From Paenibacillus sanguinis 2301083 = DSM 16941 (GTDB lineage Bacteria > Bacillota > Bacilli > Paenibacillales > Paenibacillaceae): a stretch of DNA of 64,000 nt. Below the pieces are notes generated by a model, which was not told where the DNA came from, searched no databases, and worked only from the letters and a program-made list of their open reading frames with translations. How positions within the stretch are numbered: the first letter of the stretch is position 1; each line of letters begins with the position of its first letter. The position numbers were made by a program, and so were the translations under genes. The stretch spans positions 1 to 64,000 of the forward strand of contig NZ_KB895383.1 in NCBI RefSeq assembly GCF_000374825.1. The letters are read 5' to 3'. This document shows positions 1-58,585 of the stretch, piece by piece.

Positions 1-114
1 GTAGCGGAGCGTAGACAGATCTACGTGAGCAACGGAAGGCCCGGCTGAATTCAAGATTCGCTGTCGAATCAGCTTCTTGTATAGGCCACGTGATCTGAAG
101 ATGATTTTTTGAAC
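1..114 (+). repeat. Modular intergenic repeat, copy A (left-truncated by window)
   Basis: This is the right part of a repeat family also found at 7570-7800, 26665-26770 and 49484-49649. Shared blocks are the GTAGCGGAG start, the box TACGTGAGCAAC, the palindrome TGAATTCA followed by GATTCG-N-GTCGAATC, and the end GATTTTTTGAAC at 103-114. A short hairpin CGTAG-ACAGAT-CTACG lies at 10-25. The left boundary is outside the window. It ends 24 bases before the -35 box of the rimP promoter. The family looks like a non-coding, structured or MITE-like element. Confidence 0.75.
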
Positions 115-137
115 AACCGCTAGTAAAGGTGTTTTAC

Positions 138-7556: not shown

Positions 7557-7569
7557 GCCAAAATGGCGA

Positions 7570-7800
7570 GTTCAAAAAGTCGGGTTTACAGGACCAAGAA
7601 GGTTGGATGAAGCTAGGGAGTGAGTAGCGGAGCTACACGTTTTCGGAGAAAACGACTTCGGAAGCATGGGTACGTGAGCAACTGAAATGTTTCTGAAGGA
7701 AACATACTACGGAAGCATATGCTAGGCCCGGTTGAATTCAAGATTCGATGTCGAATTTACTTCTCGAACAGCTTCGTCCTGGGAAGACGACTTTTTGAAC
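7570..7800 (+). repeat. Modular intergenic repeat, copy B (longest)
   Basis: The element is bounded by a perfect 12-base inverted repeat, GTTCAAAAAGTC (7570-7581) and GACTTTTTGAAC (7789-7800). Inside, in order, are hairpin GTAGC-GGA-GCTAC (7624-7636), hairpin CGTTTTC-GGA-GAAAACG (7638-7654) followed by ACTTCGGAAGCATG, TACGTGAGCAAC, and hairpin ATGTTTC-TGAAG-GAAACAT (7687-7705) followed by ACTACGGAAGCAT. Then come GGCCCGGTTGAATTCAA and ATTCGATGTCGAAT. No reading frame looks real. It fills most of the truB-ribF gap. Confidence 0.85.
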
Positions 7801-7849
7801 CTCTAATAAGTTAAAATGCTAATCCGTGGGAAGTGGCAGGTGATATGAT

Positions 7850-26655: not shown

Positions 26656-26664
26656 AATAAATAG

Positions 26665-26770
26665 GTTCAAAAGGTTACTACGGAAGCTTAGGTTTGGCCG
26701 GTTGAATTCAAGATTTGATGCCGAATTTACTTCTTGGATCCCTTAGAGATCAGAAGATGACTTTTTGAAC
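26665..26770 (+). repeat. Modular intergenic repeat, copy C (short)
   Basis: GTTCAAAAGGTT (26665-26676) and GACTTTTTGAAC (26759-26770) form the ends. Between them lie ACTACGGAAGCTTAGG, GGCCGGTTGAATTCAA and GATTTGATGCCGAATTTACTTC. The hairpin modules seen in copies B and D are absent, so this is close to a minimal form. It precedes the ymfF promoter by about 40 bases. Confidence 0.8.
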
Positions 26771-26811
26771 TACCTCTAAGAAAGTGGAAGGAGCAGCCGA
26801 TTGTTGTCAGG

Positions 26812-49442: not shown

Positions 49443-49483
49443 GAGGCTGAAGGACAACTCCAATTTGAACACTAAAAGTGCGT

Positions 49484-49649
49484 GTTCAAAAAGTCGGGTT
49501 TGCAGGACCGAGAAGGTTGGAGGAAGCCAGGAACTGAGTAGCGGAGCTACACGTTTTCGGAGAAAACGACTTCGGAAGCATGTGAATTCAAGATTCGATG
49601 TCGAATTACTCCTCGAACAACTCCGTCCTGGGAAGACAACTTTTTGAAC
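49484..49649 (+). repeat. Modular intergenic repeat, copy D
   Basis: Ends GTTCAAAAAGTC (49484-49495) and AACTTTTTGAAC (49638-49649) form the inverted repeat, with one mismatch. Inside are GTAGC-GGA-GCTAC (49538-49550), CGTTTTC-GGA-GAAAACG (49552-49568), CTTCGGAAGCATG, GAATTCAA and GATTCGATGTCGAATT. It is very close to copy B but lacks the second hairpin module and the GGCCCGG block. It sits inside the accessory cluster, 24 bases before the transporter start. Confidence 0.85.
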
Positions 49650-49673
49650 AACCTCTAAAAGGAGATTTGAACG

Positions 49674-58364: not shown

Positions 58365-58585
58365 TAAGCCTATGGTATAATTTTTTATTGATGCTTATAG
58401 AAGTTGTTCAAACCGTTATCTATTGATTACGAGGCGGGTCAGGAAGCAGATTGCACGCGCTACTATATAAATTGAACGAAAGAACATTGGTCATCATAGA
58501 TTCAACTTATATAGCAATTTTAGAACGAATCAATGGTTTGACATGAAATATAAAGCGATATCGAAATGAGGAAGTGAAGCGAACG

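Follow-up and report, generated by a model that had tools for sequence, protein, structure and literature searches.

REP sequences and elements of the IS200/IS605 (Y1) type form hairpins, lie between genes and occur in high copy number, and Y1 movement leaves no target duplication. DDE cut-and-paste enzymes leave inverted ends with an exact short target duplication. In Streptococcus pneumoniae, 125 BOX elements made up of 422 modules are present in one strain, and effects of hairpins on host transcripts are reported for other repeats, according to the available part of the source (PMC3049150). Here we describe a family of intergenic repeats that we read, with a probability of roughly 0.8, as old, high-copy, MITE-like mobile elements and not as a gene leader. 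The family displays several of the features by which a MITE is recognised, namely terminal inverted repeats, a target duplication, a small size (classes of 167–270 bp) without a transposase, many copies and empty sites.

Genome G000 comprises 4.80 Mb in 36 contigs, and the window, the whole 64-kb stretch analysed here, covers the initial 64 kb of its contig C8. The initial annotation had placed four copies at 1–114, 7570–7800, 26665–26770 and 49484–49649, with inverted ends and ordered blocks, and all four are found as claimed. They were placed correctly, but the element extends another 6 bp outward at both ends; likewise, the four named copies are real, but a fifth, a remnant, lies on the other strand. 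The features are as follows.

1..120, forward strand: copy 1, of which the right two thirds are present, with the contig starting within it; found at the same place in genomes G021 and G006
7564..7803, forward strand: copy 2, between truB and ribF; modules D and E present, module B absent
7633..7669, forward strand: module D within copy 2, made of a small hairpin and then ACTTCGGAAGCATGG
7683..7726, forward strand: module E within copy 2, made of a small hairpin and then ACTACGGAAGCATATGCT
26659..26776, forward strand: copy 3, left part deleted and left end degraded; 24 bp before a peptidase-M16 gene
49473..49477, no strand: left target duplication of copy 4, TAAAA, from the empty-site comparison
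49478..49655, forward strand: copy 4, carrying module D; 18 bp before a transporter-like gene
49656..49660, no strand: right target duplication of copy 4, TAAAA, from the empty-site comparison
about 58396–58460, reverse strand: fifth copy, a strongly degraded remnant (41 bits) in which a degraded right end is joined to an apparent left end

Copy 1 has a short (D2) apical hairpin, and 148 bp separate its end from the start of rimP at 268. Copy 2 lacks 3 bp at its right edge, and its target duplication is imperfect (CAAAA / TAATA). Copy 3 is flanked by a cell-wall hydrolase and a peptidase-M16 protein (Pfam), and copy 4, in which the stretch between module D and the TGAATTC block is deleted, by an FAD oxidoreductase and a DcuC-like transporter (Pfam, with the transporter match below the cut-off). 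Across the window, the 12-mer end motif is matched 14 times at no more than two mismatches, against a mean of 5.8 in shuffled sequence (0 of 100 shuffles reach 14). In line with the initial view that no transposase lies inside, end-paired copies reach about 420 bp at most, too short for a transposase gene.

The whole element reads GTGCGT-GTTCAAAAAGTC...GACTTTTTGAAC-AACCTC. Its terminal inverted repeats have a near-perfect 12-bp core and extend over about 29 bp at 80–83% identity (copies 2 and 4), and the outermost 6 bp are unlike between the two ends (GTGCGT versus GAGGTT). The insertion target is palindromic, C-TWNWA-G by the majority reading of 76 perfect sites, and gives an exact 5-bp duplication. 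Specifically, the agreement between flanks peaks at exactly 5 bp, where identity is 77.7% compared with 57.0% for shuffled partners, and perfect 5-bp duplications border 76 of 167 non-tandem copies, against a shuffled-partner mean of 11.7 and maximum of 25. This test drew 192 copies from all loci and dropped 25 tandem neighbours; the copies that remain are not all independent, as relatives share some insertions. A smaller set of 65 copies gives 66% flank identity versus 54% (shuffle maximum 61.5%), a weaker signal that we attribute to degraded ends. With a G as its first base and a C as its last, the element would restore C-TWNWA-G at both edges whenever it inserts, and another copy could then land alongside. 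In the tandem arrays, neighbouring GAAC and GTTC ends are separated by 17 bases in six of the seven junctions examined and by 18 in the other, and 17 bases equal a right end of 6, one target of 5 and a left end of 6.

Genome G021, the nearest relative found, is largely colinear with the window at 83–91% identity, and comparison of orthologous intervals, as the initial annotation had proposed, reveals insertions present in one genome and absent from the other. Copy 4 is cleanly absent from G021, in which a single TAAAA is kept: the window reads ACAC-TAAAA-GTGCGT[GTTC...GAAC]AACCTC-TAAAA-GGAG where G021 reads ACAT-TAAAA-GGAG. For copy 3, the matching intervals of G021, G006, G034 and G024 hold no element, with edges that are less clean. 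Copy 2 sits at the same place in G021, there with module B, and is missing from the matching interval of G006, and copy 1 has its counterpart in both genomes. Fifteen further intervals aligned between G000 and G021, two of them too long to show in full, contain shared insertions, deletion remnants in either genome and a copy found in G021 only (L175). At one of these places (L051/L221), G000 has a tandem pair and G021 a single copy near the same site in the opposite orientation, which indicates that independent insertion at a hot spot also occurs. Four genomes of the genus g67 (L330, L331, L333 and L334) carry a copy at what appears to be the same place, with near-identical flanks and TTATA on the left in all four, and so some copies appear to be old and inherited.

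The family is abundant well beyond the window. G000 contains 252 sites within one mismatch of GTTCAAAAAGTC, compared with 17 for the reversed motif, and BLAST with the 231-bp copy 2 returns at least 64 matching pieces among the best 40 of 138 candidates scored; the outcome that would have refuted the initial annotation, no further copies in the genome, is thus not seen. At two ends per copy, the 252 end motifs suggest that the genome holds roughly 120 copies, to which degraded copies would add and from which lone ends would subtract. The G000 loci collected (L001–L087) were picked by BLAST rank and from the first 100 places listed for the exact motif, which go as far as contig C11; copies with good ends are therefore over-represented in this sample. 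Contig breaks of G000 fall in or near family copies at window position 1 and at the edges of C13, C22, C25, C31 and C33, among others, as expected if the repeat breaks the assembly. Additionally, another dispersed repeat, which extends about 115 bp to one side of the element and up to 250 bp to the other, hosts it at the same internal position in L002, L003, L015, L026, L044 and L084; pieces of this repeat also occur in L126 and L288, and in L126, from G021, a transposase gene sits between its two pieces.

Between their GTTC and GAAC ends, the copies fall into main classes of 167–168, 205–208, 229–231, 238–243 and 265–270 bp, besides deletion remnants. What sets the long forms apart from the 167-bp form is chiefly a single type of insert, which consists of a small hairpin and then ACWWCGGAAGCAT, with a short palindrome added at two sites. 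This module of about 38 nt occurs at three sites of the hairpin, termed B (where it is inverted), D (at the hairpin tip) and E. The B, D and E consensuses align with each other at scores of 21.5, 20.0 and 15.0, above the respective shuffle maxima of 13.5, 12.5 and 11.5 (0 of 1000). As the initial annotation had stated, copies differ by the gain or loss of whole blocks, here a module present or absent at three sites, and all eight B/D/E combinations are represented among 107 well-formed copies: B+D+E+ in 26, B+D+E- in 3, B+D-E+ in 5, B+D-E- in 4, B-D+E+ in 7, B-D+E- in 1, B-D-E+ in 12 and B-D-E- in 49, where some of the module-minus states are deletion products, including window copy 4, the sole D-only case. 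The module pattern has 60 exact matches in G000 (control, 1), all of them in family copies. A free-standing repeat was considered for the module and rejected, as 57 of the 60 matches lie in copies already collected and the other three, once read, proved to be family copies too. In the copy at about 1501–1715 of L318, from a genome of another genus (G080), module D lies in the hairpin tip and replaces a few bases of the loop stem, which helps to delimit the module.

Module content also changes at orthologous insertions. At L005/L227, all three modules are present in G000 and none in G021, and at copy 2, module B is absent in the window and present in G021. Such differences could arise in any of three ways, by recombination between copies, by precise gain or loss of the module or by another insertion at a hot spot, and hot-spot reinsertion may account for part of those seen in place. 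Three of six planned orthologous pairs were compared with their best paralogs (the other three were lost because the filtered set lacked one of the sides): in two the members are less similar than they are to their best paralogs, which fits conversion, and in L086/L173 (98.1%) they are more similar. In the mechanism that we favour, the module differences would come from copies recombining with each other or from modules being precisely gained and lost.

The initial annotation had offered two readings, a mobile, structured, non-coding element or a regulatory leader family, and had all copies in one orientation. A cis-regulatory RNA leader or attenuator, retained for control of the downstream gene, would be in keeping with the conserved fold and with the positions of the four originally named window copies, each of which lies 18–148 bp before a gene of the same direction. 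Genome-wide, however, the arrangement is different. Two genomes together supply 113 copies of 90 bp or more, and for 106 of them the neighbours could be read from a simple longest-ORF gene call; of these 42 run with tandem genes, 34 run against them, 18 lie in divergent gaps and 12 in convergent gaps (p = 0.42, with versus against). The uniform orientation thus fails across the family, and a leader of host genes would be expected to be biased in this respect. The fold is equally intact in both orientations (0.85 versus 0.80 broken pairs in 13 sense and 10 antisense copies, p = 0.79, a small sample), the neighbouring genes are varied, the copies have a target duplication and an empty site, and no Rfam family corresponds to them. 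Given the lack of orientation bias and the equal integrity of the fold, we consider the leader reading highly improbable. Taken together, the inverted ends, the 5-bp target duplications, the empty site in a relative and the conserved fold bear out the mobile, structured, non-coding element.

The fold itself is strong. For copy 2, the predicted free energy is -84.6 kcal/mol on the forward strand and -68.0 kcal/mol on the reverse strand, and the two strands are equally far from shuffled sequences (z of -4.67 and -4.59), in part because of the inverted ends; among short copies, the forward strand is more stable in 42 of 43. The consensus of 30 diverse copies from G000 and related genomes is one rod-like hairpin of 47 pairs, at which 97.9% of the cells pair, compared with 32–50% in slid versions. 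Covariation was assessed on 28 of the 30 loci found in the order by a structure model built from these 30 copies (without L294, a G000 copy, and L318, which has module D) plus one G000 copy, rows that were found by a structure-aware model and are thus biased toward pairing. In the 27 distinct rows, 98.4% of the cells pair and changes on both sides are seen at 21 of the 47 pairs (104 cells), values that none of 500 shuffles reach in any measure. When eight of the ten fetched g67 loci are set beside 13 of these rows, 96.0% of the cells pair and 20 of the 47 pairs are compensated; in 500 shuffles, the first three measures and the score are never reached, and the number of pair types is reached three times. 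One arm has three pairs that are broken in six or in all eight of the g67 rows, and is thus not fully alike in g67.

The alignment also discriminates between the strands. At the consensus pairs, G-T cells outnumber A-C cells by 106 to 2 in the 29 rows, by 100 to 2 in the 27 distinct rows (still 73 G-T cells when the invariant pair 70–88 is left out) and by 64 to 1 with the g67 rows, counts taken on structures that allow G-U by construction. With Watson-Crick-only structures, the excess is smaller but holds, being 74 to 24 cells and 23 to 11 pairs for the forward-derived structure and 113 to 48 cells and 26 to 16 pairs for the reverse-derived one. This excess of G-T over A-C identifies the forward strand, whether as RNA or as single-stranded DNA, as the strand whose fold is maintained. 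The G-T pair at columns 70–88 is invariant and adjoins an invariant GGA/GA-type internal loop, with few exceptions.

What the folded strand does for the element can be read in several ways. The folded forward strand itself, as an RNA or single-stranded DNA intermediate, might be what moves, rather than the double-stranded ends only; this is consistent with a one-strand fold kept between genera with G-T over A-C, with the invariant pair 70–88 and the loop beside it, and with a slight excess of copies oriented against the assumed replication fork (89 against, 58 with, p = 0.013, in 24 single-contig or near-complete genomes). That fork excess is weak, with the origin assumed at base 1, only listed places counted and copies that are not independent, and we do not rely on it. 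Inverted ends with an exact 5-bp duplication are, on the other hand, what DDE cut-and-paste enzymes leave, and movement through the folded strand seems to us quite unlikely. A related and more elaborate proposal, speculative and in our judgement unlikely, is that this mobile element of Bacilli needs its forward strand in folded form (RNA or single-stranded DNA) in order to transpose, with the hairpin, including the invariant G-T(U) pair and the GGA/GA-type loop, as the recognition structure for the moving machinery and the module of about 38 nt as a second-order unit that comes and goes.

The main rival to a role of the fold in the element's own spread places its function in the host. Here the family would still be a MITE, and its hairpin, after insertion, would act mainly on host transcripts as an RNase III site, a stabiliser or a terminator, which would be why the fold is kept. 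The strong forward-strand fold and the many copies within tens of bases of a gene start agree with such a role, as does the presence of about half of the bcr repeats of Bacillus cereus in mRNAs, as given in the available part of PMC3446304. The fold is equally intact in antisense copies (in the same small sample), and no orientation bias is seen, both of which count against it. We regard this reading as possible, though on balance doubtful. In the reading that we prefer, the fold, in a transcript or in single-stranded DNA, would serve the spread of the MITE-like element and not the control of host genes; we infer this from the absence of bias, as the copies ignore gene direction. The element would be moved by a trans-acting transposase of the DDE type, which leaves a short duplication.

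A candidate relationship for this enzyme comes from the ends. The right end GAGGTTGTTCAAAAAGTC was compared with nine elements of related genomes that match PF13751, which we take to be IS1182-like. Their 18 ends score 10–15 of 18 in register, with 16 of the 18 at 12–15, a similarity short of identity, while 34 ends of 17 other elements score 7–12 of 18. Three of these control elements (L100, L124 and L251) also match PF13751 yet have unlike ends (9–12 of 18), and the likeness is therefore to a subgroup of PF13751 only. Unlike the present family, the nine elements contain a transposase and show no 5-bp duplication, with 0–3 of 5 flanking bases alike. From this end similarity, the parent may be a relative of the PF13751 elements, and we do not claim membership. 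No autonomous element with the family's ends was found in the fetched loci of PF01609 and PF00665 matches from eight genomes or in those of PF13751 matches from 39 genomes, and in 16 low-copy genomes the exact 12-base ends never pair at IS distance. One pair of ends 2.3 kb apart (L039, contig C1) was examined as an IS and rejected, since it encloses ordinary genes and the ends belong to separate copies.

The family extends through the order and beyond it. The structure model, of the kind with which the initial annotation had suggested that related genomes be searched, gives full-length matches in 103 of 246 genomes of the order, in 19 of 46 genera (E ≤ 1e-6), with rough E-values and at most the best 11 candidates scored per genome. 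Across the class, 38 of 299 genomes have matches (E ≤ 1e-4), 18 of them outside the order, where six g67 genomes carry strong full-length matches (E of 1e-33 to 1e-36). Twelve other genomes outside the order, from other families of Bacilli (G289, G329, G338, G341, G349, G415, G425, G442, G444, G499, G517 and G523), have weak model matches (E of 4e-5 to 1e-14) and possibly contain distant relatives. With copy 2 alone, BLAST detects the family in 26 of the 35 further genomes from the genus and in 2 of 23 that belong to the order but not to the genus. A scan of species genomes for an exact form of the left end gives Paenibacillus records only (33 stretches). Among plasmid records, copy 2 matches two from Paenibacillus and a g67 copy matches three from Paenibacillus; phage records give no match to copy 2, and the viral contigs contain none with one exact central-hairpin pattern. 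Neither the window nor L016 has an Rfam match at gathering score, and a single sR36 match is at chance level (10.6 bits versus 55 needed). The view that the family was new to the literature agrees with this and with our search on Paenibacillus and Brevibacillus repeats and the end motif, which found no earlier report among the papers listed; the search covered mostly papers outside subscription.

These findings bear on several questions. The family is abundant in Paenibacillus-type genomes and occurs at full length in another genus outside the order, and its one-strand fold is kept between genera though the copies ignore the direction of neighbouring genes. Whether a miniature element of bacteria exploits RNA or single-strand structure to spread itself can thereby be put to a direct test. 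The nested module, which changes at orthologous insertions, provides a natural record of recombination between dispersed repeats. In practice, the family breaks assemblies, as in the window, whose own contig starts inside a copy.

Among the known systems, REP sequences and Y1-type elements share the hairpins, intergenic sites and high copy number of the present family, which differs from them in its exact 5-bp target duplication. The bcr1–bcr3 repeats of the Bacillus cereus group, compared by description, are likewise intergenic, MITE-like and high in copy in Bacilli, and are often present in transcripts, according to the available part of PMC3446304. QMITE2 and other bacterial MITEs have inverted ends, target duplications and intergenic sites, with a hairpin-forming transcript in those MITEs, whereas the modular sub-elements and the fold conserved across genera that characterise the present family are not mentioned in the available part of that source (PMC10969869). 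In architecture, the family is, by analogy, closest to the pneumococcal BOX elements, which, in the available part of PMC3049150, are similarly small interspersed modular repeats with fixed outer parts, a variable number of inner modules and a predicted fold that tolerates module gain or loss. The likeness is one of architecture, set beside BOX by description and not by boxA, boxB or boxC sequence; and unlike BOX, which varies the number of tandem boxB modules, the present family has one type of module that is present or absent at three separate sites, at one of them inverted.
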